From: Opitutia bacterium
GTDB lineage: Bacteria; Verrucomicrobiota; Verrucomicrobiia; Opitutales; UBA953
Reading direction: 5' to 3'
DNA length: 64,000 bases
Assembly: GCA_003569245.1 (NCBI GenBank)
Contig: BGOM01000011.1
Coordinates: 1-64,000 of the forward strand
Shown here: positions 22,412 to 60,086 of the stretch, piece after piece
How positions within the stretch are numbered: the first letter of the stretch is position 1
Layout: each line of letters begins with the position of its first letter
Position numbers and translations under genes: made by a program
The notes under the pieces: model-generated
The model's input: only the letters and a program-made list of their open reading frames with translations
Told to the model about the DNA's origin: nothing
Database searches by the model: none

Positions 22412-23983
22412 TCACTTCGCCGGTTCGAGGATGATCAGGCGCCCCGGCGTGCTTGTGCCCGCGGCGAGCGAATTGCCCCGGCAATACTCCGCGATAAGCA
22501 CGCGATGACCGGGTAGGGTGACCATCGAGATCGGCCGGGCGAGCGGGCTGGCGACCGTCGTGATGACCGCCTCCTGCTTGGCGAAGTCCAGACGGGCCTG
22601 CACGAGGTCGAAACCGCTCTGGTCCTTGAGGTAGTTGCCGAACCGGGAGATCAGGAAACTGCCGCCGAGCGGCGCGGGCCAATCCGGGCCGAGTTCAAGG
22701 ATCGTCGAGGGCGAGGAGTGCGGCGTGAAGGTCGCGGTACCGCCGCGATCGCCCGCGTCGGGTCCGACGTTCTTGAACGGCCGGGTGAACGGCAGGTTCT
22801 TGGGCGCGTCGGGGGTGTGCGGGTAGGGCTTGGTCTTCCAGTCGCCGAACTCGTAGGGGAACCCGTAATGGCGGCCGGCCTGGATCCAGTTCAACTCCTC
22901 GGGCGTATCCGCGTCGGTGCCGTTCTCGACGCCGAGGAGGCGGCCTTGGCGATCCCACGTGAAGTGGTAGGTGTTGCGCAGGCCGTGGGCGAAGACCTCG
23001 ATGTCGGGGTTGTCGCTGCGCGGGTCGAGTCGCCAGAGTTTCGCGGTGAGCGGGTTCTCGCCCGACTTATCGTAGTTCGGCGAGGTGCCGGCCTCGCCGC
23101 CATCCGTGCGGGAGCCGCTGCTCACGTAGAGGAGGCCATCGGGGCCTTGGGCGAGGTGATTCACGCCGTGGTTATAGGGGCCGACCCCGAAGTTGTAGCC
23201 GGTGCGCAGCCAAGGACGGGGCAGGACCCAGCCCTGCGCCCACGGTGAGGTCCGCCAGATCGTGACCTCGTTGAAGACGGGTTGCTTGGTCTTGTTGCCC
23301 TGGTTGCTGATGACGTAGAGCCGGCCTTGGTCGTCGACGCCCATCCCGAGGGAGGTGACATCCCCGAGTTTCGGGTCGAGGTAGTCTTTGCCGGCGAAGA
23401 GCAAGCGCACCTCGCGGGTCGCGGGATCCCAGGTCCAGACATCGCTGTTCGCGGCCAGGATGAGGACCCGTCGGCCGTCCGGGTGGTTGGCCAGTCGCGT
23501 GGGCTGGAAATCGAGCGGCGCCGCCACGGTGAACTTCCAACCGACGGGTGCGGTCGGCAGGGTGTCCGGCGACAAGGCCGCCCGCAGCTGGGCATGCGTC
23601 GGGTACTTGGTCCGGGCGCGGAGCGCGGCGATTTCCTCGACAGTGACCGTCGGCAGGCTGTTGCCGAACGACGTGAAGATATGGTTAAACACCGCGGTCA
23701 ACTGAGCATCGTCCAGGATCACCGGCGGCATCCAGCCGTTATAGCTGGCACCGTTGACCTCGATGCGTTCCTTCAGCCCCTCCAGCGGAGCACGTAAGGC
23801 CTTCTCGCGGTGCCGGACAAGGAAGTCGGCCCCGGCCAGCGGCGGGAAGGCGTTGGGGATGCCGCGTCCTTCCACCCCGTGGCAGGCCGCGCAATACTGG
23901 CGGTAAAGCTCGGCCCCGTCGGGTCGGCCTTGGCCGCACAGCAGGCCGGGCAACAGGCAGAGGAGCGCGCGCAGGGTGGACAT
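22412..23983 (-). CDS. Secreted cytochrome c / PQQ-type sugar dehydrogenase-like beta-propeller
   Basis: A 523-residue exported fusion. A signal peptide (about 1-17) is followed by a class I cytochrome c domain with heme motif CAACH (Cys31, Cys34, His35) and a distal Met candidate in YNGWMPP. From about 150 a six-bladed propeller resembles sorbosone/glucose dehydrogenases: VGPYNHGVNHLAQGPDGLLY, SSGSRTDGGEAG, AKLWRLDPRS, FAHGLRNTYHFTWDRQGRLL, NWIQAGRHYGFPYEFGDW. Such proteins oxidise sugars or alcohols in the periplasm and pass electrons to heme. The cytochrome is N-terminal rather than the more usual C-terminal arrangement. It diverges from the sulfatase gene with 99 bp between starts. Confidence 0.87.
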   Translation of the reverse strand: MSTLRALLCLLPGLLCGQGRPDGAELYRQYCAACHGVEGRGIPNAFPPLAGADFLVRHREKALRAPLEGLKERIEVNGASYNGWMPPVILDDAQLTAVFNHIFTSFGNSLPTVTVEEIAALRARTKYPTHAQLRAALSPDTLPTAPVGWKFTVAAPLDFQPTRLANHPDGRRVLILAANSDVWTWDPATREVRLLFAGKDYLDPKLGDVTSLGMGVDDQGRLYVISNQGNKTKQPVFNEVTIWRTSPWAQGWVLPRPWLRTGYNFGVGPYNHGVNHLAQGPDGLLYVSSGSRTDGGEAGTSPNYDKSGENPLTAKLWRLDPRSDNPDIEVFAHGLRNTYHFTWDRQGRLLGVENGTDADTPEELNWIQAGRHYGFPYEFGDWKTKPYPHTPDAPKNLPFTRPFKNVGPDAGDRGGTATFTPHSSPSTILELGPDWPAPLGGSFLISRFGNYLKDQSGFDLVQARLDFAKQEAVITTVASPLARPISMVTLPGHRVLIAEYCRGNSLAAGTSTPGRLIILEPAK

Positions 23984-24082
23984 GGCGGGGTGGCGGTATT
24001 CAAGGACGGCGGCCGGACGTTGTCGAGCCCCGCAGATTGCCTTTGGCAAGGGCGCAGCGGGGGCTAGGGTGGGACCACCCCG

Positions 24083-25555
24083 ATGCGCTTCCTCGCCTGC
24101 CTGCTGCTCCCGTTCGTCGTCCATGCCGCCGATCGCCCGAACATCCTCTTCATCCTCACGGACGACCAAGGCTATGGGGACGTGGGCGCGCACGGGAACC
24201 CGATCCTCAAGACGCCGAACCTGGATAAGCTTCGCTCTGAGAGCGTCCGCTTCACGGATTTCCAGGTCTCGCCGACCTGCGCCCCGACGCGCAGCGCGCT
24301 GCTGACCGGGCGGCATGAGTTCAAGAACGGCATCACCCACACCATCCTCGAGCGCGAGCGACTGGCGCTCGGCGCGGCCACGCTGCCGGAGCAGCTGCGC
24401 CAGGCCGGCTACCGCACCGGTATCTTCGGCAAGTGGCACCTCGGTGACGAGGCGGAGTACCAGCCGAACAAGCGCGGTTTCGATGAGGTCTACATCCATG
24501 GCGCGGGCGGGATCGGGCAGAGCTACCCGGGCAGCTGCGGCGACGTACCCAAGAATTCCTACTACGGGCCGACCTTGCTGCATAACGGCAAGTTCGTGAA
24601 GACCGAGGGGTATTGCACCGATATGTTCTTCGCCCAGGCGACCCGTTGGATCGAGGGCGAGGCCGCGGCCAGGCGTCCCTTCTACGCGTACATCGCGACC
24701 AACGCCCCGCACGCGCCTTACAACGCCAAGCCCGAGGATGCCGCCCTCTACGAAGGCAAGGGGCTGGGCAAGGATACCGAGAACTTCTTCGGCATGCTCC
24801 ACAATATCGACCAGAACGTCGGCAAGATCCTGGCCAGGCTCGAGGCCCTCGGCATCGCGAAGGACACCTTGATCGTTTACATGAACGACAACGGCGGCAC
24901 CGCCGGCACCAAGGTCTTCAACGCCGGGATGCGCGCCCAGAAGGGGACGGCCTATATGGGCGGCATCCGCGCGATCTCATTCTGGCGGCTGCCCGGACGG
25001 TTCCAGCCGATGGACGTCAAGGCCCTCGCCGCGCACATCGACTTCGCCCCCACGATCCTCGAACTCACCGGTACGCCCGCCTCGGAGCCCATGAAGGCGC
25101 AGATCGAAGGGCGCAGCCTCCTGCCGCTGCTGACCGCCAAGGCCGGTCAGGATATCGCCTGGCCGGACCGCACGCTCTTCACGCACGTCGGTCGGTGGAA
25201 CGGCAGCGACCCGGAAGTCGGCCGGTATGTCCAGACGAGCGTCCGCACCGCCCGCTGGCACCTTGTCTCCGCCGGCAACGGCGCGAACGCGGGCAAAGGC
25301 AAGGCCAAGGCGGCCACCAAGGGGGAGGCCGCGGGCGCCGCGCCCGTTCGCCCGAACTGGCAGCTCTTCGATCTCGGCGTCGACTACGGCGAGACGACCG
25401 ATGTGGCCGCGCAGCACCCGGAAGTCGTCCGGGAACTCATCGCCAAGCACGACGCTTGGTGGAAGGAATGCCGCCCCCTGATGGTCAACGAAGGCGTCAA
25501 GGGCCCGGACGAAAACCCGTTCAAGGTGATGTATCGGGAGCAGATGGGGAAGTGA
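24083..25555 (+). CDS. Secreted sulfatase (arylsulfatase A type)
   Basis: A 490-residue sulfatase with a Sec signal (about 1-16). RPNILFILTDDQGYGDVG supplies the calcium-binding Asp pair. The modification motif is CAPTR (Cys66 to Arg70), where the cysteine becomes formylglycine, followed by LLTGRHEFKNG and GKWHLGD. DNGGT holds the later metal ligands. It cleaves sulfate esters, most plausibly from polysaccharides given the surrounding glycan-related island; the substrate is inferred. An Ala/Lys-rich insert (about 395-410, GKGKAKAATKGEAAG) is unusual and probably a surface loop. No formylglycine-generating enzyme is in the window. Confidence 0.93.
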   Translation: MRFLACLLLPFVVHAADRPNILFILTDDQGYGDVGAHGNPILKTPNLDKLRSESVRFTDFQVSPTCAPTRSALLTGRHEFKNGITHTILERERLALGAATLPEQLRQAGYRTGIFGKWHLGDEAEYQPNKRGFDEVYIHGAGGIGQSYPGSCGDVPKNSYYGPTLLHNGKFVKTEGYCTDMFFAQATRWIEGEAAARRPFYAYIATNAPHAPYNAKPEDAALYEGKGLGKDTENFFGMLHNIDQNVGKILARLEALGIAKDTLIVYMNDNGGTAGTKVFNAGMRAQKGTAYMGGIRAISFWRLPGRFQPMDVKALAAHIDFAPTILELTGTPASEPMKAQIEGRSLLPLLTAKAGQDIAWPDRTLFTHVGRWNGSDPEVGRYVQTSVRTARWHLVSAGNGANAGKGKAKAATKGEAAGAAPVRPNWQLFDLGVDYGETTDVAAQHPEVVRELIAKHDAWWKECRPLMVNEGVKGPDENPFKVMYREQMGK

Positions 25556-25590
25556 TGGAGGATAAGAGGGAAGGAGCGCTGGAGGGCAGG

Positions 25591-25866: not shown

Positions 25867-27327
25867 TTACGCCAACAGCTTCTTGACCACTTCGCCGTGG
25901 ATGTCGGTGAGGCGGAAGTCGCGGCCTTGGTAGCGGTAGGTCAGCCGGGTGTGCTCGACGCCCATCAGGTGCAAGATCGTGGCGTTGAGGTCGTGCACGT
26001 GGACGCCGTCCTTGACGATGTTGTAGCTGAAGTCGTCGGTCTCCCCGTAGGTCGTGCCTTTCTTCACGCCGGCGCCGGCCATGAGCACGGTGAAGCAGCG
26101 CGGGTGGTGGTCGCGGCCGTAGTTCGTCTCCGTCAGGCTGCCCTGCGAGTAGATCGTACGACCGAACTCGCCGCCCCAGACGATCAGGGTGTCGTCGAGC
26201 AGGCCCCTTTGCTTGAGGTCGGTAAGCAGGCCCGCCGTGGCGTGGTCAGTGTCGTTGCACTGGCCTTTGATCGCCTTGGGGAGGCCGCCATGGTGGTCCC
26301 AGCCCATGTGGAAGAGCTGGACGAAGCGGACGTCGCGTTCGCAGAGCCGGCGCGCCAGGAGGCAGTTCGAGGCGTAGGAGCCCGGACGCTTCACATCGGG
26401 TCCGTAGAGGTCGAGCACGTGCTGCGGCTCCTTGGAGAGATCAAGCAGGTCGGGCACGCTCGTCTGCATGCGGAAAGCCATCTCGTACTGGGCGATGCGC
26501 GTCTGGATCTCCGGGTCGCCGAGCACGTCGTGGCGGCGCTGGTTCAGCGCCGCGAGCTCGTCGAGCGACTCCCGGCGGACTTCGCGGCTCATGCCTTCGG
26601 GGTCCTTGAGGTAGAGGACGCGCTCGCCCTTGTTGCGGAGTTTCACGCCCTGGTGCTTGGTCGGGAGGAAGCCCGCGCCCCAGAGCCGGTCATAGAGCGG
26701 CTGGTCGTCCGGGCGGCCGCTGCCGAAGGAGCTCAGCACCACGTAGGCGGGCAGGTCCTTGTTCTCGCTGCCGAGGCCGTAGCTGGCCCACGCGCCGATG
26801 GAGGGGCGGCCGGCGAGCTGGCTGCCGGTCTGCATGAAGGTGATGGCCGGGTCGTGGTTGATCGCCTCGGTGAACATCGAGCGCACCACGCACCACTCGT
26901 CGGCCTTGGAGGCCATGTGCGGCATGAGCTCGCTGAACCAGGCCCCGCTTTGACCGTGCTGCTTGAAGTTGAAGATCGTCGGGGCGACCGGGAAGTTCTT
27001 CTGGCCCGAGGTCATCGTCGTCAGGCGCTGGCCCTTGCGGATCGACTCGGGCAGGTCCTTGCCGCGCATCGCCGCCATCGCGGGCTTCGGGTCGAAGAGG
27101 TCGAGCTGGGAAGGCGCGCCGCTCTGGAAAAGGTAGATGATGCGCTTCGCCTTGGGCTGGAAGTGCGGGGCGGCCCCGGGGGCGGCGGCGAAGGCCGCTG
27201 AGCCGAGCACCGAGCCGAGGGCGGCCAGGCCGATGCCGCCGGCCGAACCCTTCAGGAAGGTGCGGCGGGACAGCGCCATCTTGTCGGCAGGCGTGAGCCC
27301 GAGGAAGTCACGGTCGTTGCAGTTCAT
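25867..27327 (-). CDS. DUF1501 protein, Tat-exported (pair A)
   Basis: A 486-residue PVC-lineage DUF1501 protein, a member of the alkaline phosphatase/sulfatase-like superfamily with no proven reaction. The twin-arginine signal is SRRTFLKGSAGGIGLAALG (about 20-38). Family marks are IIYLFQSGAPSQLDLFDPKP, FNFKQHGQSGAWFSELMPHM, GRPSIGAWASYGLGSEN, FVQLFHMGWDHHGG, TLIVWGGEFGRT and GRDHHP. It is the second gene of a pair. Its ATG overlaps the PSD1 stop by four bases (ATGA), so the two are translationally coupled and very likely form one functional unit. The downstream 311-bp repeat block ends the unit without a clear hairpin. Confidence 0.92.
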   Translation of the reverse strand: MNCNDRDFLGLTPADKMALSRRTFLKGSAGGIGLAALGSVLGSAAFAAAPGAAPHFQPKAKRIIYLFQSGAPSQLDLFDPKPAMAAMRGKDLPESIRKGQRLTTMTSGQKNFPVAPTIFNFKQHGQSGAWFSELMPHMASKADEWCVVRSMFTEAINHDPAITFMQTGSQLAGRPSIGAWASYGLGSENKDLPAYVVLSSFGSGRPDDQPLYDRLWGAGFLPTKHQGVKLRNKGERVLYLKDPEGMSREVRRESLDELAALNQRRHDVLGDPEIQTRIAQYEMAFRMQTSVPDLLDLSKEPQHVLDLYGPDVKRPGSYASNCLLARRLCERDVRFVQLFHMGWDHHGGLPKAIKGQCNDTDHATAGLLTDLKQRGLLDDTLIVWGGEFGRTIYSQGSLTETNYGRDHHPRCFTVLMAGAGVKKGTTYGETDDFSYNIVKDGVHVHDLNATILHLMGVEHTRLTYRYQGRDFRLTDIHGEVVKKLLA

Positions 27328-30300
27328 TCGCGGGTGATGGTTTCGTCGAGGTTCAGGAGGATGTTGGCGGTCACGGTCCAGGCGGCCAGTTCCGCCGCGT
27401 CGACGTCGCTCGGGGCCGGTGAGCGGCCGGTCGCGAGCAGCTTCTGGGCCGCCGGCAGGTCGGCGCGGAAGGCGGTGAGGCGCTTCTCGAGGCCGGCGCG
27501 CAGCACCTTGGCCTCGTCGGCCTGCAGTTCGCGGCACGTCACCCGCCGGAAGGCCCAGGCGAGTCGGCGGTCGAGATCGCCGGGCTGGCGGAGCGTCGCT
27601 TCGGCCAGTTTGCGGGCGGCCTCGATGTAGGTGACTTCGTTCAGGAGCGAGAGGGCCTGCAGCGGCGTGTTGCTGCGGGAACGCTTGACGGTGCAGACCT
27701 CGCGGGTGGCGGAGTCGAAGAGCAGCATGGACGGCGGCGCGGCGGTCCGTTTCCAGATCGTGTAGAGGCTGCGGCGGTAGAGCCCTTCGCCGGTGTCGGC
27801 CTTGTAGTTGCGCATGTCTCCGTAGACGCTGGTCTCGTCCCACACCGCCTCGGGCATGTAGGGTTTGACGCTCGGGCCGCCGATCTTGGGGATGAGCAGA
27901 CCGCTCGTGGCCAGCGCCTGATCGCGGATCGTCTCGGCCGAGAGGCGGAAGCGGGGGCCGCGGGAGATCAGTCGGTTCTCGGGGTCCTTCTCGAGCTTGT
28001 CCGCGGTGACGGCGGCGCTCTGGCGGTAGGCCCGGCTCATCATGATGAACTTGAGCATGCCCTTCATGTCCCATTTCCGTTCGACGAAATCGACCGCGAG
28101 CCAGTCGAGCAGCTCGGGGTGCGAGGGCCACTCGGCCTGGGAACCGAAGTTCTCCGAGGTCTTGACCAAGCCGGTGCCGAAGAGGCGTTCCCAGGCGCGG
28201 TTGACCCAGACGCGGCCCGTGAGCGGGTGCTTCCCGTTGACGAGCCAGCGGGCGAAGCCCAGCCGGTTATTGGGTTCGCCGGCGGGCAAGGGCGGCAGGA
28301 CGGCGGGCAGCTTGCGTTCCACCTTGGCGCCCGGCTTGTCGTACTCGCCGCGGTTGAGGACGAACGCATCCTTCGGGGTGGCGCGCTCCTTCATCACCAT
28401 CACCTCGAGGCCGGACATGCTCGCGTCTTGCTTGGCCTTCATCGCGGCGTTGACCCGGGCCTGCAAGGCCTGGCGGGGGTGGTCGGGGCTTTCGAGGAAG
28501 AGGCGCGCGAGCTCCTTGCGGTCGGCGGCGGTCCGCGTCGACGGCTCCTTCATCAGTAAGACGCGCAAGGTCGCCGTGGCGGGGCTCTCCTTGAGGTCCA
28601 AGGCCGCTCGAGGCTGGTCCGAGGTGCTCAGCCGGAAGCGACCGATGTTATGGCCGCCGATCGCCTTCTGGTGCAGTTCCACGGTCAGCGTCGAGCCGGC
28701 CGCCACGGTCGTCGGCGGGAGCACGAACAGCGCCTTGCGCGGGACCTTGTTGGCGTCCACGTTGCCGGCGATCGCCCAGCCCGGTCCGGCCTTGGTCTTC
28801 GGCGTCGCCTTCTTGCCCTTGCCCGCCGGGGCGGCCTCATCGACGAGGCTCTTGATCGGATAGCCCGGCTGCTCGAAGTCGGCCTGCGCGTCCGCGATCG
28901 GCAGGACCTGGCGCTGACCGTCGGGGCTCACGAGCGTCACGGTGACATCGCTGAGCACGAAGTTGCCGTTGGTGAAACGACCGAGGCTGCCACCGGGCAG
29001 GGAGGCGTCCGGGAACGCCTCGAGCAGCAGGCCGGTGAGCTTGCCCGCGGGCAGGGCGGCGTTCACGGCATAGGTGTCGTTCGCGGGGTTCTTGCCGCCG
29101 GCGAGGTAGCTGCCGTCCGGCTGGCGGGTCAGCGTGGCACCTCCCGCGCTGGTGGCGGTGCGCACCGAGAGCGGGCTCCAGCTGACGGCCTTGCCGGCGA
29201 GGGCGCTCAGCAGGCGGGCCTCCCAGGCGACCTGCGCGCGCGCGTCGACGGGGCCGGCGTTCTTGAGCGCGGCCTGGGCTTCGGCCAGGGCGGCGTCGGC
29301 CGCGGCGATCTTCTGCCTGGCGTCCGCGTCGGCGAGGAGGAGCAGCGGCGGGGTGTTGCCGCCCTTGCGGGTGGACGCGGCGCCGCCGAAGTCGCCGAGC
29401 ACGCCGGATTCCTCGTTGGAATTGAAGTAGGCGAAGAGCTGGTAGAACTCCTTCTGGCTGATCGGGTCGTACTTGTGGTCGTGGCAGCGGCAGCAGTTGA
29501 GCGTCAGCGCCATCCAGGTCGAGCCGGTGGTCTCCAGGCGGTCGATGACCGATTCGACGAACCACTCCTCGACGATGCGACCGCCCTCGCCGTTGAGGCG
29601 GTGGTTGCGGTTGAAGCCGGTGGCGACGACCTGGGATTCCAGCGGGTTCGGCAGCAGGTCACCGGCGAGCTGCTCGATGGTGAACTGGTCGAACGGCTTG
29701 TTCTCGTTGTAGGCGCGGATGACCCAGTCGCGCCAGGGCCACATCGTGCGGGTCGTATCGCTCTGGAAGCCGTTGCTGTCCGCGTAGCGGGCGAAGTCGA
29801 GCCACTGCACCGCCATCTGCTCGCCGAAGTGGGGCGAGGCGAGGAGCCGGTCCAGCGCGCGGGACCACGCGTCCGGCGAGTTGTCCGCGAGGAAGGCCTT
29901 CTGGTCGTCCTCGGACGGGGGCAGGCCCGTCAGGTCGAGGGCGGCCCGGCGCAGCAAGGTCGCCCGGTCGGCCTCGGGGTTGGGAGCGAGGCCTTTCTCC
30001 GCCAGCGTGCGCCCGAGCCAGCCGTCGATGGCGTTGCCCCCGGCGGGGATCGGCGGGACGGCGGCTTTGCGCGGTTCCTGGAAAGCCCAGTGGCCTTGGT
30101 ATTCGGCGCCCTCGGCGATCCAGCGGCGGACCGTGTCCACCTGGGCGGCCGTCAGCACCTTATGGAATTCCGCCGGCGGCATGTGGTCGTCCGGGTCCGT
30201 CGTCAGCAGCCGCTTCATCACCGCACTCTGCTCCGGCTTGCCGGGGACGATGGCGGGATCGCCGGACTTGCCGCCCTTGCGCGCCGCCTCGAGGGTGTCG

Positions 30301-30461
30301 AGGCGCAGCTTGCCCTTGTTCTTGCTCTCGTCGGGGCCGTGGCAGGCGAAGCAGGTGTCGGAGAAGATCGGCCGGATGTCCCGGTTGAACTGGACGCGTT
30401 CGGCGGCGGAGAGCGTGCCGAGGAGACAAGCGGCGGTCAGGCTGAGGCGGGAAAGGCGCAT
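27324..30461 (-). CDS. PSD1 (cytochrome c-DUF1549-DUF1553) protein (pair A)
   Basis: A 1045-residue exported planctomycete/verrucomicrobial protein. A signal peptide (about 1-20) is followed by a PSCyt1-type cytochrome domain with CFACH (Cys37, Cys40, His41) in the FNRDIRPIFSDTCFACHGPD context. DUF1549 (about 155-365) shows RAALDLTGLPP, FGEQMAVQWLDFARYADSNG and TLNCCRCHDHKYDPISQKEF, the last with a second CxxCH. A beta-rich insert (about 465-660) contains LLLEAFPDASLPGGSLGRF. DUF1553 (about 740-1030) has GFARWLVNGKHPLTGRVWVNR, LFGTGLVKTSENFGSQ and ALSLLNEVTYIEAARKLAE. Its function is unproven; heme-linked electron transfer in the periplasm is plausible. It is coupled to the DUF1501 gene and separated by a terminator from the DUF1080 gene before it. 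Confidence 0.92.
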   Translation of the reverse strand: MRLSRLSLTAACLLGTLSAAERVQFNRDIRPIFSDTCFACHGPDESKNKGKLRLDTLEAARKGGKSGDPAIVPGKPEQSAVMKRLLTTDPDDHMPPAEFHKVLTAAQVDTVRRWIAEGAEYQGHWAFQEPRKAAVPPIPAGGNAIDGWLGRTLAEKGLAPNPEADRATLLRRAALDLTGLPPSEDDQKAFLADNSPDAWSRALDRLLASPHFGEQMAVQWLDFARYADSNGFQSDTTRTMWPWRDWVIRAYNENKPFDQFTIEQLAGDLLPNPLESQVVATGFNRNHRLNGEGGRIVEEWFVESVIDRLETTGSTWMALTLNCCRCHDHKYDPISQKEFYQLFAYFNSNEESGVLGDFGGAASTRKGGNTPPLLLLADADARQKIAAADAALAEAQAALKNAGPVDARAQVAWEARLLSALAGKAVSWSPLSVRTATSAGGATLTRQPDGSYLAGGKNPANDTYAVNAALPAGKLTGLLLEAFPDASLPGGSLGRFTNGNFVLSDVTVTLVSPDGQRQVLPIADAQADFEQPGYPIKSLVDEAAPAGKGKKATPKTKAGPGWAIAGNVDANKVPRKALFVLPPTTVAAGSTLTVELHQKAIGGHNIGRFRLSTSDQPRAALDLKESPATATLRVLLMKEPSTRTAADRKELARLFLESPDHPRQALQARVNAAMKAKQDASMSGLEVMVMKERATPKDAFVLNRGEYDKPGAKVERKLPAVLPPLPAGEPNNRLGFARWLVNGKHPLTGRVWVNRAWERLFGTGLVKTSENFGSQAEWPSHPELLDWLAVDFVERKWDMKGMLKFIMMSRAYRQSAAVTADKLEKDPENRLISRGPRFRLSAETIRDQALATSGLLIPKIGGPSVKPYMPEAVWDETSVYGDMRNYKADTGEGLYRRSLYTIWKRTAAPPSMLLFDSATREVCTVKRSRSNTPLQALSLLNEVTYIEAARKLAEATLRQPGDLDRRLAWAFRRVTCRELQADEAKVLRAGLEKRLTAFRADLPAAQKLLATGRSPAPSDVDAAELAAWTVTANILLNLDETITRE

Positions 30462-30520
30462 GGGACGTGCGGGGTAGGACAGGTTTAGGCGCCGCCTAGT
30501 TCCTTGCAATGGGGACTTAG

Positions 30521-30545
30521 CAAAAACCCCTCTTACGAGGGGTTT
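30521..30545 (-). terminator. Intrinsic terminator after the tandem DUF1080 gene
   Basis: The perfect stem AAACCCCTC (30524-30532) / GAGGGGTTT (30537-30545) with a TTAC loop is followed on the minus strand by further T residues, giving TTTTT within the 3' arm and tail. It lies 21 bp after the DUF1080 stop and about 60 bp before the PSD1 start. It therefore separates these two leftward genes into different transcription units. Confidence 0.85.
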
Positions 30546-30565
30546 CGAGGGGGGCAAAAGCCGGC

Positions 30566-50195: not shown

Positions 50196-52441
50196 ATGCG
50201 TCCGTCACTCGTCGCCCTCCTTGCCACCGCCGTCCTGGCCTTGGGTCAGGCCCCGAAGCCGGGTGCCGTCGCCAAGAATCCGACGGAGGCGCCGGGTCGC
50301 TGGATTTTCGCCACGGTCGGCGTGGATCGGAAGCCCGACGGCACCGCCGAGCATACCGCGCTGAAAGGCCTGGCCCTCCGCTTGGGCGAGGACGGCAAGC
50401 ATGCCCTCGCCTACGACACCGAGCTCGCCCGGGTCGTGGGTGGTTGGTCAGGCAAGTTCGTCAGCGAGATGAACCTCATGTCCCGCGGCGAGTACCCGTC
50501 GGCCCTGGGCAGCGTGTATTTCTCCACCGATGATGACCTCGCCGGTCTCGCCGTCGGCGAGGCCGCCCCCCGACTCGCGCGTCGCAAGGGTTTCGGCGCG
50601 CTGGGGGCAGGGCACTACCGCTTACTCTCTTTCCAGCCGCACGGCGACGGCGTGCTCACCTTCGGCGTCCCTGGCGCGGCCGATCGCGTCGTCGAGACGC
50701 CTCGCGTCGTCGATTCCAATGAAGCCCAGGTGCTGGTTCGCTCCCTCGTGACCGAGACGACCAACGGGGTGACCGTGCTGCTGGGCCGGTCCCAGGATGC
50801 CGCGCGGATCGGTGTGCGTGGGCCGGGTCGCCGCGATCAGGTCGATGGCTGGGAAGTCTACCGCATTCCCGCCGGCAAGCAGCAGGTGGAGGTCGCCTAC
50901 GCGCCGGTCGGCGCGGCCCGGCCCGAAGGCTGGCCTGAGGCGGGCGCGCCTGCCGCTCCCGGCCGACGCTGGCCGCAGACCGTCGAGACCAAGGGCGAAC
51001 TCTCGACGAAGGTCGGCGAGCCGTACGTGGTCGACCGGATCAAGCTGCCCGAAGCCAACCCTTGGAAAGCCCCGCTCTACACCTCGGCGCTCGACTTCCT
51101 GCCCGACGGACGCGCGGTCGTGGCCACCTTCCACGGCGATGTCTTCGTCGCCTCCGGCCTCGACGAAACCTTGGCAAAGGTCACCTGGCGTCGGTTTGCC
51201 GCCGGCCTCTACCACCCGCTCGGCCTGAAGGTCGTGGGCGGGGACGTCTATGTCACCTGCCGCGACGGCCTCTGGAAGCTGCGCGACACCGATGCCGATG
51301 GCGAATGCGACCGCTATGAGGTCTTCAACGGCGATCTCCAGGTCACCAAGAACTTCCACGAGTTCGTCTTCGACCTGCAGACGGACGCCGCCGGCAACTT
51401 CTACTTCCTCAAGGCGGGCCCGGTCCGCAAAGGCGGCCGCGGGTTCGACGACCTCTGCGATCACCATGGCGCGCTGCTCAAGGTCTCACCGGATGGGCGC
51501 GACTTGTCCGTGGTGGCCACCGGCTTCCGCGCGCCCAACGGCCTCGGCCTCAGCCCGACCGGGCAACTCACCACCGGAGACAACGAAGGCACCTGGACGC
51601 CGGTCTGCCGGCTGAACTGGGTCAAGGCCGGCGGCTTCTACGGCGTGCCTCCGCTGGCCCACCGCGCGACCGAGCCGACCGATTACGATCGCCCGCTCTG
51701 CTGGTTCCCGAAGGAGGTCGACAACTCCAGCGGCGGGCAGGTGTGGGTGACCTCCGACAAGTTCGGCCCGTGGAAGGATCGCCTCCTGCACCTCAGCTAC
51801 GGCACCTGCTCGCTCTTCGGCGTCCTGCCCCAGGAGGTCAGTTTCCGCGGTCAGCCCCAGATGCAGGGCGGGGTGACGCGCTTCAACGTGACCTTCGACA
51901 GCGGCGCCATGCGCGCGCGTTTCCGCCCGCAGGATGGGCAGCTCTACGTGGTCGGGCTCCGCGGCTGGCAGACGACCGCGACGCGCAATGGTTGCCTCCA
52001 GCGCGTCCGCTACACCGGCGCGAGTTACCGCGCGCCGCTCCAGCTGGCCGTCCATCCCGGGCAGGTCGTGCTCACCTTCGGCGCCCCGGTCGACCGGAAG
52101 GCCGCGGAGGATCCCGCCAGCTGGAACGCGGAACTCTGGAACTATGTCTGGTCGGCCGCCTATGGCTCGCCCGACGTCTCCACGCTCGCCACCGCCCGCC
52201 CGGCGGCGGAGGTCGGCAAGGACGGCAAACCGGAATTCTCCAAGGATCAGATGGCCGAGCGGAAGCACGATCCCTTGGTCATCCGCTCCGCCAAGGTTTC
52301 CGCCGACGGCCTGACCGTCACCTTGGATGCTCCGGAGCTTCGTCCGGCCATGCAGATGCAGCTCAAGTACGACTGAAGTCCGCCGACGGTCAGGAGCTAC
52401 GCGGGCAGGTGGTCAACACCATCCACGCCCTGACGAAGTAA
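50196..52441 (+). pseudogene. DUF6797-like secreted propeller protein, 3' frameshift
   Basis: An exported protein of 726 residues as read (748 if the frame is restored). A signal peptide (about 1-18) precedes an N-terminal beta domain of DUF6797 type (about 25-255; GRWIFATVGVDRKPDGTAEH, SGKFVSEMNLMSRGEYPSAL). An NHL/sorbosone-dehydrogenase-like propeller follows (about 285-610; LPDGRAVVATFHGDVFVASG, DTDADGECDRYEVFNG, FRAPNGLGLSPTGQL). The reading frame stops at TGA 52374-52376 inside LKYD. Adding one base there (CC for C) continues LKSADGQELRGQVVNTIHAL to a TAA at 52439-52441, which matches the family ending. No heme motif is visible. The loss removes only about 22 residues, so the product may still work. 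Confidence 0.78.
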
Positions 52442-52456: not shown

Positions 52457-53602
52457 TCACTTGCCGCTCGGCACGTAGCCCTTCCAGAGCCACTCCAAGG
52501 CGTTCGGGAGGATCTGGGCGCGGGCGGGCCCGAGGCCGTGGCCGGCATTCTGGCAGAAGAGGTACTGGTAGGGGTAGCCTTTGGCCTTGAGGACCTTGGC
52601 CATGCGGTGGTTGGCCTCGACCCAGTCGTGCATGCCGTCGCGCATCACGTTCGGGTTGAAGTTATCGCGGTCGCCCACGGCCAGATACAGGCGGATCGGC
52701 TTGCGCTCGGACTTCGGGATCAGCTGGTCGTGGAAATCCCAGGCGCCGCCCGGCGTGGCGGGGTCGAAGGGCCACTGCTGGTTGACGAACGTCCCCGAAA
52801 GCGTCAGCACGCGGCGGAACCACTCGGGGTGGTACCAGGCCATGATCAGCGCGGCGGAACCGCCGGAGCTCGTGCCCATGGTCGCGCGGCCCTCGGGGTC
52901 GGTCGTGAACTTCACGCCGGTCTTCTGCTCCACCTGGGGGAGCACCTCGAGCTGGATGAACTCGGCGAAGAGCCCGGACATCGTGTCGTACTCCTTGCCG
53001 CGCTCATGGCCTTGCGCGTCGCCGCCGCCGTTGGCGATCATCACCGTGATCACGGGCGGGATCCGCTTCTGCGCGATCAGGTTGTCGAGGAGGCGGCACA
53101 GGTTGAGGTCGGGCTTGCCCAGCCCCGGACCATCATGCGTGACCAGCAGCGGGGCCGCCGTGCCGGGTACGTACTGGGCCGGGATGTGGACGGTGATCGT
53201 GCGCTTGTAGTCGATGGTATGCGTCGCGACGATCAAGGTCTTCGGGTTCTGCGGGTCCGGCGTGCCGAACTCCTTGCGCGCGATACCCGGGTTGAACCGC
53301 TGGCAATCCTTCGAGTTCATGACGAACTGCTCCACGCGTCCCTGCGGGACCCCGGCGATGGCCTTCGTCTCGGGGGCGGCCACGTAATCCGGGCCCACCA
53401 CGAAATCGCCGTAGGCGTCGGCGGAGGGCGTCGCGCCCGGCTTGCCGTCGAGGCGGATGAACTTCGGGGCGGTCGGACCGTCGAACGGCCGGGTCGGCGG
53501 CTGCGGGCGCGCGGCCGGCTTGGGGGCCGGGGTGACGGTCTTGGGCGCGTCGGCGGCGAAGCCGGTCAGCGCGAGGAGCAAGAGGGCGGGGCGGAGGCTC
53601 AT
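52457..53602 (-). CDS. Secreted esterase, enterochelin esterase-like
   Basis: A 381-residue secreted alpha/beta hydrolase. A signal peptide (about 1-17) is followed by a Pro/Ala-rich linker (about 18-45), then an esterase D / enterochelin esterase-like domain. This shows TITVHIPAQYVPGTAAPLLV, VTHDGPGLGKPDLNLC, the nucleophile elbow GRATMGTSSGGSAALIMAWY, GDRDNFNPNVMRDGMHDWVE (acid) and FCQNAGHGLGPA (His). Some relatives are feruloyl/acetyl xylan esterases and some act on siderophores. No iron genes are nearby, so a carbohydrate ester is likelier. It converges with the DUF6797-like gene (restored stops 16 bp apart). Confidence 0.85.
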   Translation of the reverse strand: MSLRPALLLLALTGFAADAPKTVTPAPKPAARPQPPTRPFDGPTAPKFIRLDGKPGATPSADAYGDFVVGPDYVAAPETKAIAGVPQGRVEQFVMNSKDCQRFNPGIARKEFGTPDPQNPKTLIVATHTIDYKRTITVHIPAQYVPGTAAPLLVTHDGPGLGKPDLNLCRLLDNLIAQKRIPPVITVMIANGGGDAQGHERGKEYDTMSGLFAEFIQLEVLPQVEQKTGVKFTTDPEGRATMGTSSGGSAALIMAWYHPEWFRRVLTLSGTFVNQQWPFDPATPGGAWDFHDQLIPKSERKPIRLYLAVGDRDNFNPNVMRDGMHDWVEANHRMAKVLKAKGYPYQYLFCQNAGHGLGPARAQILPNALEWLWKGYVPSGK

Positions 53603-53665
53603 GAGGGGCAGGGGGTTAGTCCCGTTTAAGGGGCCCCGGTTCCGCGCACGCAAGCCTTTCGAGGT

Positions 53666-55605: not shown

Positions 55606-57615
55606 ATGCGACGTCTCCTCCTGCTCGCCCTCGCCACCGTCGCCCTCGCTGACGGCCCCAAGGACAACGTGGCCACCGCGGTCCGCCCGATCCCCCCGCC
55701 CGGCGTCCCGGTCCCGGAAGCCGACCGCAAGGCGATCCAGCAGGCGCTCAGCGAGCTGCGCGTCGCGATCGAGAACGCGACCAAGGCCCAGGCCAGGAAC
55801 CCGCGGCTCCAGGAGCTGCTGCCCGACCTCGAGGTCTGCCACAAGGCGGCCGACTGGGCGCTGCGGTACAACGAGTTCTTCAAGGAGGCCGAGTTCAAGT
55901 CGGCGCTCGAGGTCATCGCCGAGGGCAAGGCGCGCGCCGCGGCCTTCGCCAAGGGCGAGGCTCCTTGGACCACCCAGAAGGGGCCGGTCATCCGTGGCTA
56001 CCGTTCGCGTCTCGATGGCTCCATCCAGCCCTACGGGATCGTCGTCCCCGAGAACGCCGGCCACGGTCCGCTCCGTCTCGATTTCTGGTGCCACGGTCGC
56101 GGCGAGAACCTCAGCGAGCTCAACTTCGTCCAGGACCGCCGCAAGTCCGTCGGTCAGATCGCGGCGCAGAACCGTTACGTCCTCCATCCCTACGGCCGCT
56201 ACTGCTGCGCCAACAAGTTCGCCGGCGAGGTCGATCTCTGGGAAGCCTACGAGCACGCCCGCAAGTCCTATGCCTTCGACGAGGACCGGCTCTTCATCCG
56301 CGGCTTCAGCATGGGCGGCGCGGCCGTCTGGCAGTTCGGCGCCCACTACACCGACCGCTGGTGCGCCATCAACCCCGGGGCGGGCTTCTCCGAGACCCCC
56401 GAGTTCCTGAATGTCTTCCAGAACGAGGATGTGTCCAAGATCCCCGCCTGGCAGCAGACGCTGTGGTCCTGGTACAACGCGACCGACGTCGCCGCCAATT
56501 TCGCGAACGCCCCGCTCGTGGCCTACAGCGGCGAACTCGACAAGCAGAAGCAGGCCGCCGACGTCATGGCCAAGCACCTCCGCGCCGAGAACCTCGACCT
56601 CGTCCACATCATCGGGCCGAAGACCGCGCACAAGATCCACCCCGACTCGCTGGCGGAGATCGAGCGTCGGCTCGCCGCCATCGCCGCCGTCGGCCGCGTC
56701 CGCGCCCCCCGGGAGGTCACGCTCGTCACCTACTTCCTCCGCTATAACCGCATGCATTGGGTCCAGGTCGACCGACTGGCCCAGCACTGGCAGCCGGCCC
56801 GGCTCGCCGCCGAGGTCGACGGTGACAACGCCGTGACCGTCAAGACCCTGAATGTCACCGGCTTCACCCTGGACATGGCCCCCGGCCATGCGCCGTTCTC
56901 GCAGCGCGGCAAGGTCGTCGTGCACATCGACGGCCAGGACGTCGAGACGCCGCCGCCCGCCACCGACCGCTCCTGGAAGGTCACCTTCGCCCGCGCGCCC
57001 CACAACGGCAAGTGGACGCAGGTGCAGGCGTACGATGACGAAGCCGGCCTGGTGAAGCGCCATGGGCTGACCGGCCCGATCGACGACGCCTTCATGGACG
57101 CCTTCCTGTTCGTCTCCCCGACGGGTCAGCCGCTGCACGCCAGGTCCGGCGCCTGGGCCAAGGCCGAGATGGAGCGCGCCAGCTGGGAATGGCGGCGTCA
57201 GTTCCGCGGGTTCGCCCCGGTCAAGACGGACAAGGATATCAAGGACGAGGATATCGCCGCGCATAACCTGATCCTGTGGGGCGATCCGTCCAGCAACGCG
57301 CTGATCGCGCGCATCGTCGCGAAGCTACCGATCACGTGGACCGCCGAGAAACTCGTGGTGAACGACAAGACCTACTCGCCGCAGGACCACATGCCGGTCC
57401 TGATCTACCCGAACCCGCTCAACCCGGCGAAGTACGTGGTGATCAACAGCGGCTTCACCTACCGCGAGTACGACTACCTCAACAACGCCCGGCAGGTCCC
57501 GAAACTGCCCGACTGGGCCGTCATCGACCTCAACACGCCCGTGACTCCCCAGGCCCCTGGCGCGATCCCGGATGCCGGCTTCTTCGACGAGCACTGGCGC
57601 TGGCGCGTCCGCTGA
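55606..57615 (+). CDS. Secreted prolyl-oligopeptidase-fold hydrolase
   Basis: A 669-residue secreted alpha/beta hydrolase. After a signal peptide (about 1-15) and a helical segment comes an N-terminal beta region (about 125-160), then the catalytic domain. It contains LDFWCHGRGENLSELNF, LFIRGFSMGGAAVWQF (nucleophile Ser235), VAYSGELDKQKQ (acid region) and GPKTAHKIHP (catalytic His near 345). The C-terminal half (about 365-669) is a beta-rich extension with HNLILWGDPSSNALIARIV and KYVVINSGFTYREYD. This plan occurs in many Planctomycetes and Verrucomicrobiota hydrolases of unknown substrate. It is first in a run with the GMC oxidoreductase, 19 bp downstream. Confidence 0.85.
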   Translation: MRRLLLLALATVALADGPKDNVATAVRPIPPPGVPVPEADRKAIQQALSELRVAIENATKAQARNPRLQELLPDLEVCHKAADWALRYNEFFKEAEFKSALEVIAEGKARAAAFAKGEAPWTTQKGPVIRGYRSRLDGSIQPYGIVVPENAGHGPLRLDFWCHGRGENLSELNFVQDRRKSVGQIAAQNRYVLHPYGRYCCANKFAGEVDLWEAYEHARKSYAFDEDRLFIRGFSMGGAAVWQFGAHYTDRWCAINPGAGFSETPEFLNVFQNEDVSKIPAWQQTLWSWYNATDVAANFANAPLVAYSGELDKQKQAADVMAKHLRAENLDLVHIIGPKTAHKIHPDSLAEIERRLAAIAAVGRVRAPREVTLVTYFLRYNRMHWVQVDRLAQHWQPARLAAEVDGDNAVTVKTLNVTGFTLDMAPGHAPFSQRGKVVVHIDGQDVETPPPATDRSWKVTFARAPHNGKWTQVQAYDDEAGLVKRHGLTGPIDDAFMDAFLFVSPTGQPLHARSGAWAKAEMERASWEWRRQFRGFAPVKTDKDIKDEDIAAHNLILWGDPSSNALIARIVAKLPITWTAEKLVVNDKTYSPQDHMPVLIYPNPLNPAKYVVINSGFTYREYDYLNNARQVPKLPDWAVIDLNTPVTPQAPGAIPDAGFFDEHWRWRVR

Positions 57616-57634
57616 ACCGCCGAACGCTCCGCCC

Positions 57635-59413
57635 ATGCCCATCATCACGGAAAAAGAACTGCGTCCGGATTACGACGTGATCGTCGTCGGCTCCGGCGCC
57701 GGCGGCGGTCAGTCCGCCTACACGCTCACCATGAACGGCGTGAAGGTCCTCATGCTGGAAGCCGGTCGCAACTACGACCCGGCGACCGAGACGCCGATGT
57801 TCCAGACGGCCAGCCAGATGCCCCTGCGCGGCCTGTCCACCCGCGAGAAGCCCTTCGGTTTCGCCGATGCCACCGTGGACGGCGGGTGGGAGGTCCCGGA
57901 CGAGCCCTACACCCAGGCCAATGACAAGCCCGAGGAACGGTTCTGGTGGTGGCGCGCCCGCATGCTCGGAGGTCGCACCAACCACTGGGGACGCATCTCC
58001 CTGCGCAACGGCCCGTATGATTTCAAACCCTACTCCCGCGACGGCCTCGGTTTCGACTGGCCCATCGCCTACGAGGACGTCGCCCCTTATTACGACAAGG
58101 TGGAGCTGCTCGTCGGCGTCTACGGCTCCAACGAGGGCCTGGAGAACACACCCGATTCGCCCAACGGCACGCTGCTCCCGCCCCCGAAGGCCCGGGCCGG
58201 CGAACTCTACTTCAAGAAGCACGTCGCCAAGCTCGGCATCCCCGTCGTCCCGATCCACCGCGCCGTGCTCAGCACCCGCCAGGACCACGAGAACATCCCC
58301 CGCCGCCTCTTCCCGCATAACCCGACCGCGCAGAAACTGACGGCGGAGTCCATGAAGGCGCGGGCCGCCTGCTTCTGGGCGACCGATTGCGGGCGCGGCT
58401 GCAGCATCCGGGCGAACTACCAGTCCACGACGGTGCACCTGCCCCCGGCGCTCGCCTCGGGCAACCTCGACATCCTCTGCGACGCGCATGCTCGCGAGGT
58501 CATCCTCAACGACCAGGGCAAGGCCGCCGGCGTCGCCTATGTCGACAAGAAGACCGGCCAGGAACGGGTCGTGAAGGCCCGCGCGGTCATCCTCGCCGCC
58601 AGTTCCGGGGAGACCGCCCGCATCCTGCTCAACTCCCGCGCGAAGCGACCCGAGGGCGTCGCGAACTCCAGCGGGCTCGTCGGCAAGTACATCATGGACA
58701 CCGTCGGGGCCGGCCTCGGCGGCCGCGTGCCCGCCTTCGAGAATCTCCCCGTGCACAACGAGGACGGCGCCGGCGCGCACGTCTACGTCCCGTGGTGGCT
58801 CTACCGGCCGCAGCACGCCGGCAAGCTCGACTTCGCCCGCGGTTATCACATCGAGTTCACGACCGGTCGCCAGGCCCCGAACCTCAACGTCGCCGGCCCC
58901 GCGGCCCCGGGCTATGGCCGGGCCTTCAAGGAGGACCTGCGTCGCACCTACGGCTCGTTCGTCGGTTTCTCCGGCCGCGGCGAGATGATCCCGAACAAGG
59001 ATTCCTTCTGCGAGCTCGACCCCTCCGTGAAGGACAAGTGGGGTATCCCCGTCCTCCGTTTCCATTGGAAATGGTCCAGCCACGAGCTCAACCAGGCCGC
59101 GCACATGCAGCGCACGTTCAAGGAGATGATCGAGGCCGCCGGCGGCGTCGCCGGCAACCCGACCACCGGGGACAAGGCCATCAAGCCCGGCGGCTTCATC
59201 ATCCACGAGGTCGGCGGCGGGATCATGGGCGCCGACCGCGCCAAATCCGTGACCAACGGCTGGAACCAGTGCTGGGACATCCCCAACCTCCTGCTGAACG
59301 ACGGCTCCGCCTTCGCCAGCAACGCCGACAAGAACCCGACCCTGACCATCATGGCCTTGGCGTGGCGCGCGTGCGACCACCTCATCGACGAGATGCGCAA
59401 GGGCAACCTCTGA
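57635..59413 (+). CDS. GMC family FAD oxidoreductase
   Basis: A 592-residue glucose-methanol-choline oxidoreductase. The FAD motif is YDVIVVGSGAGGGQSAY near the N-terminus. Further marks are MLEAGRNYDP, RMLGGRTNHWGRISLRN, CGRGCSIRANYQSTTVHLPP, AVILAASSGETARILLNS and the C-terminal IPNLLLNDGSAFASNADKNP with TLTIMALAWRACDHL. Members oxidise alcohol groups of sugars. It sits directly upstream of a gluconate 2-dehydrogenase subunit 3-like gene (10 bp), the usual arrangement of membrane/periplasmic sugar dehydrogenases, including glycoside 3-dehydrogenases. No signal peptide is visible, so export may depend on the Tat signal of the small subunit. Confidence 0.93.
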   Translation: MPIITEKELRPDYDVIVVGSGAGGGQSAYTLTMNGVKVLMLEAGRNYDPATETPMFQTASQMPLRGLSTREKPFGFADATVDGGWEVPDEPYTQANDKPEERFWWWRARMLGGRTNHWGRISLRNGPYDFKPYSRDGLGFDWPIAYEDVAPYYDKVELLVGVYGSNEGLENTPDSPNGTLLPPPKARAGELYFKKHVAKLGIPVVPIHRAVLSTRQDHENIPRRLFPHNPTAQKLTAESMKARAACFWATDCGRGCSIRANYQSTTVHLPPALASGNLDILCDAHAREVILNDQGKAAGVAYVDKKTGQERVVKARAVILAASSGETARILLNSRAKRPEGVANSSGLVGKYIMDTVGAGLGGRVPAFENLPVHNEDGAGAHVYVPWWLYRPQHAGKLDFARGYHIEFTTGRQAPNLNVAGPAAPGYGRAFKEDLRRTYGSFVGFSGRGEMIPNKDSFCELDPSVKDKWGIPVLRFHWKWSSHELNQAAHMQRTFKEMIEAAGGVAGNPTTGDKAIKPGGFIIHEVGGGIMGADRAKSVTNGWNQCWDIPNLLLNDGSAFASNADKNPTLTIMALAWRACDHLIDEMRKGNL

Positions 59414-59423
59414 GCCGCCGACC

Positions 59424-60086
59424 ATGCCCCCCGAATCTTCCTCCTCCCCGTCGCCCCGGCTCGATCGCCGCCAGGCGCTTGCCTGGCTGGCCGTCGCCGC
59501 CGTCGGCCTCACCGCGTCCGGTCGCCTGCCGCTCGGCGCGGCCGAACCCGGCGATCGTCCGCACGGCAAGCGCATCGGCGCCGACCCGGTGCTGAACAAG
59601 ACCTACGTCCCCGGCGAGCTCTGGCCGCTCTCGTTCACGCCCGCCCAGCGGGCCGCGGCCGACGCGTTGGCCGACCTCATCCTACCCCCGGAGGCCGGCG
59701 GCAAGAAGCCGTCCGAGCTCGGCGTGCCCGCGTTCATCGACGAATGGGTCAGTTCCTATTACGACGAGACGCTCAAGGACCGTCCGATCATCCTCGCGGG
59801 CCTGACCTGGCTCGACGCCGAGGCGCAGCGCCGACACGGCGCCGTCTTCGCGAAGCTGACCGAGGCCCAGCAGGCCGGCATCGCCGATGATATCTGCGGC
59901 GTGAAGCCGGTGAAGAAGGAGCACAAGCCCGGTCAGGATTTCTTCAAGCGGTTCCGCCACCTCGCGGCCGGGGGTTACTACACGACCCCGCAGGGGATGC
60001 GCGAACTCGGGTACGTCGGCAACACGCCTTCGGCCAACTTCGACGGGCCGACCCCGGAAGCGCTCAAGCATCTCGGTCTCGCCTGA
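59424..60086 (+). CDS. Gluconate 2-dehydrogenase subunit 3-like protein, Tat signal
   Basis: A 220-residue small subunit of GMC-type dehydrogenases. The N-terminal DRRQALAWLAVAAVGLTASG carries twin arginines followed by a hydrophobic core, as in Tat signals. The family region includes FTPAQRAAADALADLILPPE, GVPAFIDEWVSSYYDE, GLTWLDAEAQRRHGAVFAKL and FKRFRHLAAGGYYTTPQGMR. It would carry its flavoprotein partner to the periplasm by co-export (hitchhiking), as known for such pairs. Its 3' end is 3 bp from the convergent EamA gene. No cytochrome subunit follows, so electrons must go to one of the c-type proteins encoded elsewhere. Confidence 0.9.
   Translation: MPPESSSSPSPRLDRRQALAWLAVAAVGLTASGRLPLGAAEPGDRPHGKRIGADPVLNKTYVPGELWPLSFTPAQRAAADALADLILPPEAGGKKPSELGVPAFIDEWVSSYYDETLKDRPIILAGLTWLDAEAQRRHGAVFAKLTEAQQAGIADDICGVKPVKKEHKPGQDFFKRFRHLAAGGYYTTPQGMRELGYVGNTPSANFDGPTPEALKHLGLA

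Follow-up and report, generated by a model that had tools for sequence, protein, structure and literature searches.

Two neighbouring gene modules of an Opitutia bacterium as a candidate periplasmic toolkit for the oxidative opening of decorated glycans

Oxidation of a sugar ring followed by splitting of the glycosidic bond is a known, little-studied alternative to ordinary sugar-cutting enzymes. In Bacteroides, a 3-keto pathway (BT2157 to BT2160) was reportedly described in a Nature study of 2024, in which a DUF1080 hydrolase is the cleaving enzyme; oxidation in this pathway proceeds via NAD-dependent Gfo/Idh enzymes. Fructose dehydrogenase and FAD-glucose dehydrogenase complexes have a small subunit with a twin-arginine translocation (Tat) signal, a heme partner and free hexoses as substrates, and the LacABC operon of Caulobacter encodes a cytochrome c subunit, LacB. 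Fitness data of Caulobacter link DUF1080 to lactose use beside LacABC, and a glycosidase-free sugar release was proposed for these periplasmic dehydrogenase genes near DUF1080 (PMC9007349, where BT2157 of Bacteroides is also named). The PSCyt/PSD genes of freshwater Verrucomicrobia, found beside sulfatases, were proposed in 2017 to have a carbohydrate role, somewhat mirroring glycoside hydrolase (GH) genes by a different mechanism; PSCyt is inversely related to GH gene density (r = -0.62), and nothing is said to be known about PSCyt/PSD functions (PMC5615132). The proposal of PSCyt-GH mirroring was published in 2017 and the LacABC-DUF1080 coupling in 2022. Here we describe positions 22412 to 60086 (the interval) of a 64,000-nucleotide stretch (the window; contig BGOM01000011.1 of assembly GCA_003569245.1), where such genes occur together with unusual heme-containing parts. 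The question at stake is whether glycan breakdown in lake bacteria proceeds by oxidation coupled to respiration; the genus probably lives in lakes or other freshwater, judging from the isolate names of related metagenome-assembled genomes.

The interval consists of two neighbouring modules and is not one obligate operon (Table 1). Module 1 is encoded on the minus strand (44997 to 25867) in the order PSD1c, DUF1501c, esterase, FAD_oxidored-golvesin protein (FAD-golvesin), PSD1b, DUF1501b, DUF1080 protein, tandem DUF1080 protein, PSD1a and DUF1501a. Module 2 (55606 to 60086) encodes an S9 hydrolase, a GMC dehydrogenase and a Gluconate_2-dh3 small subunit (subunit 3), and this GMC pair is located 12.6 kb beyond module 1. 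A ThuA/NPCBM/propeller/heme fusion, a Sel1 protein, a second propeller, an esterase and an ABC-F ATPase are encoded between the modules. A periplasmic toolkit that opens decorated glycans by oxidation is the best explanation for this arrangement and appears moderately probable. Its best founded part, which we consider likely on the basis of gene context, is that the GMC pair is a sugar-ring dehydrogenase serving DUF1080; a contribution of module 1 to the same process is plausible, if leaning to the doubtful side. Similar to LacABC, the window's GMC protein has catalytic His and Asn residues and an adjacent Gluconate_2-dh3 subunit with a Tat-like signal, a likeness drawn from these features and not from a comparison with the LacA sequence. 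Unlike in LacABC, neither a cytochrome c subunit nor DUF1080 is encoded beside GMC in the window, the nearest DUF1080 gene being approximately 25 kb away, and in the genus DUF1080 shares one fused polypeptide with SGNH, propeller, HEAT and cytochrome c domains. In contrast to the Bacteroides pathway, which has the DUF1080 cleaving enzyme in common, the route proposed here would depend on flavin and heme instead of NAD-dependent Gfo/Idh enzymes. The domains of the PSCyt/PSD genes are the same as in the freshwater Verrucomicrobia, for which the excerpts of PMC5615132 mention no DUF1080, GMC or FAD partner.

The window belongs to contig C11 of a 2.45-Mb assembly (G000, 91% complete; genomes, contigs and loci carry our own numbers), in which GMC has one full-length match and Gluconate_2-dh3 one match. 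The closest solved relatives of the GMC subunit, fructose dehydrogenase and FAD-glucose dehydrogenase complexes, are only distant ones. In the alignment, H545 and N588 correspond to positions that had been altered in solved entries of fructose dehydrogenase. A C-x5-C-x3-C triad (C267, C273 and C277), whose cysteines we take to be 3Fe-4S cluster ligands, aligns with fructose dehydrogenase cysteines of the same spacing. The sequence search of the PDB with subunit 3 gave nothing significant. GMC orthologs are present in 21 of 25 genomes of the genus (partial or split in G010, G020 and G022) and were not found in G003, G006, G013 and G018.

In all 12 genomes carrying both on one contig (G002, G004, G005, G007, G008, G010, G011, G012, G015, G016, G019 and G024), a DUF1080-SGNH-propeller-HEAT-cytochrome c fusion of about 1210 amino acids starts less than 1 kb after GMC. 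In nine of them it was read as a single open reading frame (ORF) that immediately follows subunit 3 in the same orientation; the copy of G008 leaves the contig before the heme, that of G010 has one in-frame stop (subunit 3 not read there), and that of G002 was placed by coordinates only. The domains were checked by Pfam in one copy (G019, L054:7735-11364, 1209 amino acids), which gave DUF1080, GDSL/SGNH (below the curated cut-off), a DUF7133 propeller, HEAT and cytochrome c. Fusion orthologs of at least 66% identity are encoded in 15/25 genomes, those of G013, G017 and G022 being partial and not on a GMC contig. In the downstream stretches read, the fusion is missing after GMC in G000, G001, G014, G043, G009, G017 and G021, and no relative was found in the viral contigs scanned with the fusion protein. 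The suggestion of the earlier note on this DNA that GMC and subunit 3 oxidise the ring for DUF1080 gains from the context in relatives and loses from the genome of the window, which has no such fusion beside GMC. In open-licence PubMed Central, no literature was found on the fusion behind GMC-subunit 3 (not searched by name), on an FAD-golvesin/DUF1080 linkage, joining DUF1080 with gluconate 2-dehydrogenase subunit 3, or joining DUF1501, DUF1553 and polysaccharide.

A match to GMC was found in 52 of 387 genomes of the phylum. Outside the genus, 20 of the 23 places with about 60% identity or more were fetched (left out: G293, C88 of G318, and G351), and subunit 3 lies beside GMC in 20/20. In L205, L206 and L208, DUF1080 is at most two genes from GMC, and in L215 the distance is four genes. 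Near GMC, Pfam identified TIM barrels (L204, L205, L208, L211, L212 and L215) and Gfo/Idh (L205, L208 and L212). Genes were picked by a codon-position rule, and those within approximately three positions of the GMC pair were tallied (137, or 117 once the 20 subunit-3 genes are left out) against 20 other stretches of the same genomes with 160 genes (116 plus 44 scanned later, the latter being the outer and longest genes, among them a TIM-barrel profile match at L221:14528-15460). AP_endonuc_2, the family of the sugar-isomerase TIM barrels, was the top family near GMC, with 12/117 genes versus at most 2/160 in the controls (p = 0.0008, taking 2/160); DUF1080 accounted for 4/117, PSD1 for 3/117 and Gfo/Idh for 3/117. 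In the controls, AP_endonuc_2 and DUF1080 each made up at most 1/116 and at most 1/44, below the families shown, and the excess of DUF1080 was not significant (4/117 versus 1/116, p = 0.19). Counted by locus, TIM-barrel profile matches were obtained in 8/20 versus 2/20 controls (p = 0.03); the control profile scan gave DUF1080 in 1/20 loci, outside the 160 genes.

Plasmid records contain 586 entries with a GMC match, 15 of which were listed and six opened (not all genes appear in the collection's table); DUF1080 is near GMC in 4/6. GMC proteins 34-53% identical to that of the window, each with adjacent subunit 3, are encoded in Pseudoalteromonas, Xanthomonas and Paracoccus, where DUF1080, TIM barrel and Gfo/Idh genes accompany GMC, unlike in the window. 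The order in Pseudoalteromonas donghaensis is Gfo/Idh, isomerase, major facilitator superfamily protein, DUF1080, GMC (52.6%), subunit 3 and isomerase, and in Xanthomonas sacchari it is TIM barrel, GMC, subunit 3, DUF1080, cytochrome c, isomerase and Gfo/Idh. The group of Paracoccus liaowanqingii is like the latter, with ATP-binding cassette sugar transport in addition and no cytochrome listed. In Spirosoma oryzicola, DUF1080 follows two genes after GMC and no subunit 3 is listed there. Glycoside hydrolases adjoin the GMC-subunit 3 pairs of Hymenobacter (GH92) and Catenovulum (GH88, in a group with a sulfatase, a PVC-type heme protein and a TIM barrel).

The second candidate oxidase, FAD-golvesin, also recurs with DUF1080. 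Orthologs from other families are found near DUF1080 in seven loci (L152, L155-L158, L160 and L161); six of these cases belong to family f2 and one to f19, which makes three lineages together with the genus of the window. DUF1080, an epimerase-like gene, FAD-golvesin and Gfo/Idh follow each other in G097, G084 and G109, G069, G120 and G051 have a similar order that includes additional or unidentified genes, and DUF1080 adjoins FAD-golvesin on the opposite strand in G061. Gfo/Idh is present without DUF1080 in the FAD-golvesin stretch of G025 (contig C10), the contig of G066 is too short to judge, and seven shorter FAD homologs (L162-L168) have neither DUF1080 nor Gfo/Idh in stretches of 6.5-20 kb. 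Pfam was run on L155, L157, L160 and one gene of L161, and home-built profiles served for the other FAD-golvesin loci; gene calls in loci of low GC content were taken from ORF lists.

In the proposed sequence of events, sulfatase, DUF1501 proteins and esterases would strip substituents from a glycan held by NPCBM and modules resembling carbohydrate-binding modules. GMC-Gluconate_2-dh3, whose export presumably relies on the Tat signal carried by the small subunit, would then oxidise a pyranose ring. C3 is the probable site of this oxidation, by analogy with LacABC and glucoside 3-dehydrogenase, and FAD-golvesin is a possible second oxidase encoded within the DUF1080 operon. The DUF1080 proteins would cleave the resulting 3-keto-glycoside, as family and context suggest. 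Electrons might leave via c-type hemes, for which relatives have the cytochrome c fused to DUF1080 and for which one of the TIGR02604/PSCyt heme proteins may serve in the window's own genome; the passage of electrons through hemes, and with it the chain as a whole, is our inference. TIM-barrel isomerases and Gfo/Idh proteins encoded elsewhere could recycle the 3-keto sugar. A wider version seems unlikely as a whole: a respiratory glycan depolymerisation in freshwater Opitutae, with oxidation by GMC-subunit 3 and FAD-golvesin, cleavage by DUF1080, hemes fused to DUF1080 or to a glycan-binding diheme PSD1, and DUF1501 as sulfatase-fold partner. If true, this respiratory route would assign a function to the PSCyt/PSD1/DUF1501 families, which are abundant and uncharacterised. 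The cluster ties PSD1 and DUF1501, for which no assigned role was found, to probable ring oxidation, and the DUF1080-cytochrome c polypeptide is a concrete protein for a test.

A number of observations, given here and with the two rival explanations that follow, weigh against the toolkit. Gfo/Idh shows no excess near GMC (3/117 versus 2/116 control genes), and a looser test counting any of three home-made profiles within about 20 kb, trained partly on the test loci, gave 10/20 versus 5/20 loci (p = 0.095). The neighbouring loci stem from related genomes, so the counts are not independent. Two of the six plasmid records opened (Hymenobacter and Catenovulum) lack DUF1080 in the stretch opened. 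No ortholog of the fusion was found in the window's own 91%-complete assembly, the best relative being a 43% identical DUF1080-SGNH-propeller paralog at C16. In G009, G017 and G021, the GMC pair is separated from the core cluster; in G021 the S9 and EamA neighbours are in place without the pair, which is found on another contig, so that module 2 moves independently. In module 1, DUF1501b/PSD1b are absent from the cluster in G005 and PSD1a/DUF1501a in G043, which shows that PSD1-DUF1501 cassettes are dispensable within the genus and speaks against one unit. The single 38-kb system of the earlier note could not be upheld, since the GMC pair is separable and the cassettes come and go, and a single operon for the whole interval was dropped for the former reason.

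The chief rival explanation, which is unlikely and still carries weight, regards the DUF1080 proteins as conventional endo-hydrolases of GH16-like type that attack beta-glucans or similar substrates without prior oxidation, with the heme and FAD proteins doing something else. The planctomycete DUF1080 protein THTE_1561 has a measured endo-glucanase/xanthanase activity (endo-xanthanase/lichenase; PMC10881899), by which the assignment of DUF1080 to 3-keto cleavage in the earlier note is weakened, and 2/9 DUF1080 genes of that planctomycete are up-regulated on xanthan (PMC5673643). In the genome of the window, PSD1 is either missing from the contig or over 10 kb distant for 17/23 DUF1080 places (counted for 23 of 25 DUF1080 matches, one below the cut-off and one fragment being dropped, and for 22 of 23 PSD1 matches, two being pieces of one frame). 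Against this rival, DUF1080 is found repeatedly next to GMC-subunit 3, TIM barrels and Gfo/Idh across several phyla, and it is also fused to cytochrome c. With 25 DUF1080 matches genome-wide, three domains in the interval are unremarkable by number alone, and copy number was dropped as evidence. No glycoside hydrolase was found by Pfam in the scanned ORFs of the interval, so this statement of the earlier note stood there, with a pectate-lyase-like gene just outside the edge. GH3, the one GH family searched genome-wide, was not detected in the own genome and was present in 10/14 control genomes. At C24:166397-167870 of the same genome, DUF1080 and AP_endonuc_2 are 158 bp apart on the same strand, a possible sign of 3-keto chemistry.

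An improbable alternative is that no common pathway exists, the genes forming a vertically inherited block for secreted proteins in a lineage rich in such families, with co-location by chance. The 25 DUF1080 and 23 PSD1 matches in 2.45 Mb raise the chance of such co-location, and the synteny in the genus also takes in ThiC, arginine decarboxylase and ABC-F; as it reaches unrelated genes, part of it is plain inheritance. Chance is countered by the tight same-strand gaps of module 1, at most 86 bp outside the esterase stretch (86 bp result from the shortened DUF1501c; the full ORFs touch), by the recurrence of DUF1080 near FAD-golvesin in f2 and f19 and by DUF1080 near GMC in other genera. The gene-order comparison called for in the earlier note showed synteny conserved across the genus. 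The order kept in the contigs fetched is sulfatase / DUF1501a-PSD1a-tandem DUF1080-DUF1080-DUF1501b-PSD1b-FAD-golvesin-esterase-DUF1501c-PSD1c / ThuA fusion, and this order is complete on the contigs of sufficient length (G004, G009, G011, G015, G017, G019 and G021). The tight gaps and the order recurring in the genus thus place the grouping of module 1 beyond chance. Relatives of the tandem DUF1080 protein were found in 22/25 genomes of the genus (own included), with an extra fragment in G003, and not in G006 and G018. The cytochrome-GSDH gene is at the syntenic place in only some genomes of the genus.

A role of the PSD1-DUF1501 pairs in sugar chemistry is inferential. Domain order (PSCyt1-PSCyt2-PSD1), two heme motifs and an adjacent DUF1501 gene are shared by 3/3 pairs of the window, and DUF1501 is present in 65/80 PSD1 loci, a number of which are cut by contig ends. 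The PSCyt2 columns CxxCHxHKxD are invariant in 37 sequences. An AlphaFold model of PSD1b (37 sequences, pLDDT 82.9, pTM 0.81) has a beta-rich middle and helical ends. It has no whole-length match in the PDB (TM by query length at most 0.09 among the 50 matches listed), and many matches with a probability of 0.8-0.98 are carbohydrate-binding modules (E 0.06-0.24), whose counterpart in PSD1b may tentatively be placed in the beta-rich middle of the model, at about residues 437-617, aligned ranges not being displayed. UBR4, the sole match with E below 0.001 (probability 0.25, TM 0.08), and BIRC6, UBR4 and Banna virus proteins, next by E-value (probability at most 0.35), were rejected as spurious. 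The model of DUF1501b (54 sequences, pLDDT 83.7) resembles sulfatases, phosphonate monoester hydrolases and LtaS (best E 1.2e-6, 162 matches below 0.001, TM about 0.25-0.4). Identical in 54/54 sequences are N158, H159, W342, D343, H345, E386, F387, G388, R389, R398, D399 and H400. The motif C/S-x-P-x-R, which we take to be the nucleophile motif of S1 formylglycine sulfatases, is absent from the three DUF1501 proteins of the window, and such a pattern occurs in 3/54 aligned members; DUF1501b is thus a sulfatase-fold protein of unassigned reaction. PDB sequence searches with PSD1 and DUF1501 gave nothing significant. That the pairs are the real oxidative depolymerase, with the diheme PSD1 binding glycan and moving electrons, DUF1501 hydrolysing an ester and DUF1080 and FAD proteins as passengers, is more improbable still: the abundance of PSD1, its frequent DUF1501 partner, the invariant heme columns, the weak carbohydrate-binding module matches of the beta-rich middle and the inverse relation to GH density (PMC5615132) favour it, but a whole-length fold match and a known activity are lacking, and the cassettes come and go within the genus, whereas G005 and G043 retain DUF1080 and FAD-golvesin. 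In another lineage (L260:3746-8183), a DUF1080-matching ORF overlaps the start of a PSD1 ORF, possibly as a fusion.

ORFs of the window were called by codon-position GC and annotated by Pfam and NCBIfam scans between 22.4 and 60.1 kb; the motif patterns CxxCH, C/SxPxR and Tat were scripted in the form we assume them to have. The inventory of domain families listed in the earlier note was borne out, including three PSD1-DUF1501 pairs, three DUF1080 domains (two in tandem in one protein) and several esterases, namely three esterase/S9-like hydrolases. The DUF1080 proteins score 236.8 and 122.4 bits with PF06439 (gathering score 26.8). The label DUF6797 for the second propeller was not reproduced and was dropped, as no Pfam family was found.

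Table 1. Features of the interval and its 3' flank, with positions in the window
Position	Strand	Product	Evidence and remarks
22412..~23983	-	Secreted cytochrome c with GSDH-type propeller	PF00034, PF07995; one CxxCH
24083..25555	+	S1-family sulfatase	PF00884, E=7e-54; CAPTR motif (formylglycine kind)
25867..27327	-	DUF1501 protein a	PF07394; Tat-like signal (by eye)
27324..30557	-	PSCyt1-PSCyt2-PSD1 protein a	PF07635/PF07583/PF07587; two CxxCH
30566..31936	-	Tandem DUF1080 protein (3-keto-disaccharide hydrolase family)	PF06439, two stretches, E=2e-70
31967..32620	-	Single DUF1080 protein	PF06439, E=3e-35
32689..34128	-	DUF1501 protein b	PF07394; AlphaFold model similar to sulfatase/phosphonate monoesterase folds
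34132..37302	-	PSCyt1-PSCyt2-PSD1 protein b	PF07635/PF07583/PF07587; two CxxCH; AlphaFold model
37330..39414	-	FAD_oxidored + Golvesin_C, candidate ring oxidase of the cluster	PF12831
39487..40328	-	BD-FAE-type esterase	Pfam; split by frame change
40331..41767	-	DUF1501 protein c	PF07394; Tat-like signal
41767..44997	-	PSCyt1-PSCyt2-PSD1 protein c	PF07635/PF07583/PF07587; two CxxCH
45176..49267	+	ThuA-NPCBM-propeller (DUF7133/TIGR02604)-HEAT-heme (TIGR02603) fusion	Pfam, NCBIfam
49283..50149		Sel1 protein	No evident sugar-chemistry role
50196..52376	+	TIGR02604-like propeller	NCBIfam match below cut-off; no Pfam family; no CxxCH; present in relatives
52457..53653	-	Esterase	PF00756
53666..55525		ABC-F ATPase	No evident sugar-chemistry role
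55606..57615	+	Secreted S9-like alpha/beta hydrolase adjoining GMC	PF00326; precedes GMC in many relatives
57572..59413	+	GMC dehydrogenase, proposed glycoside 3-dehydrogenase large subunit	Pfam; His545, Asn588, Cys267/273/277
59424..60086	+	Gluconate_2-dh3 small subunit	Pfam; twin-arginine-like signal; sole match in genome
60986..62278	-	Pel9A-like beta-helix/PelN pectate-lyase-like protein, outside the interval	PF22842, E=7e-82; NF041899, E=4e-82, below cut-off

The 796-amino acid ORF of the cytochrome c-GSDH gene is over-extended, and its start was placed by inspection. The frame of the BD-FAE esterase breaks near GHSAGG, due to an assembly error or a broken gene; a single open frame is found in G043 (L150). 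The pectate-lyase-like gene begins 0.9 kb beyond the 3' edge of the interval, which therefore stops just before a classical polysaccharide-cleaving family; in G043 (L151), the Pel9A-like gene is the next one after subunit 3. At 62328-63974 there is a UPF0261 gene with another minus-strand ORF upstream, and in many genomes of the genus UPF0261 occurs close to the GMC pair. Further along contig C11, a ThuA/TIGR02604-like match was obtained at about 66 kb, and more PSD1/DUF1501 genes, DUF1080 and an esterase-like match are present at about 72-89 kb (L051-L052), approximately 10-25 kb past the window.

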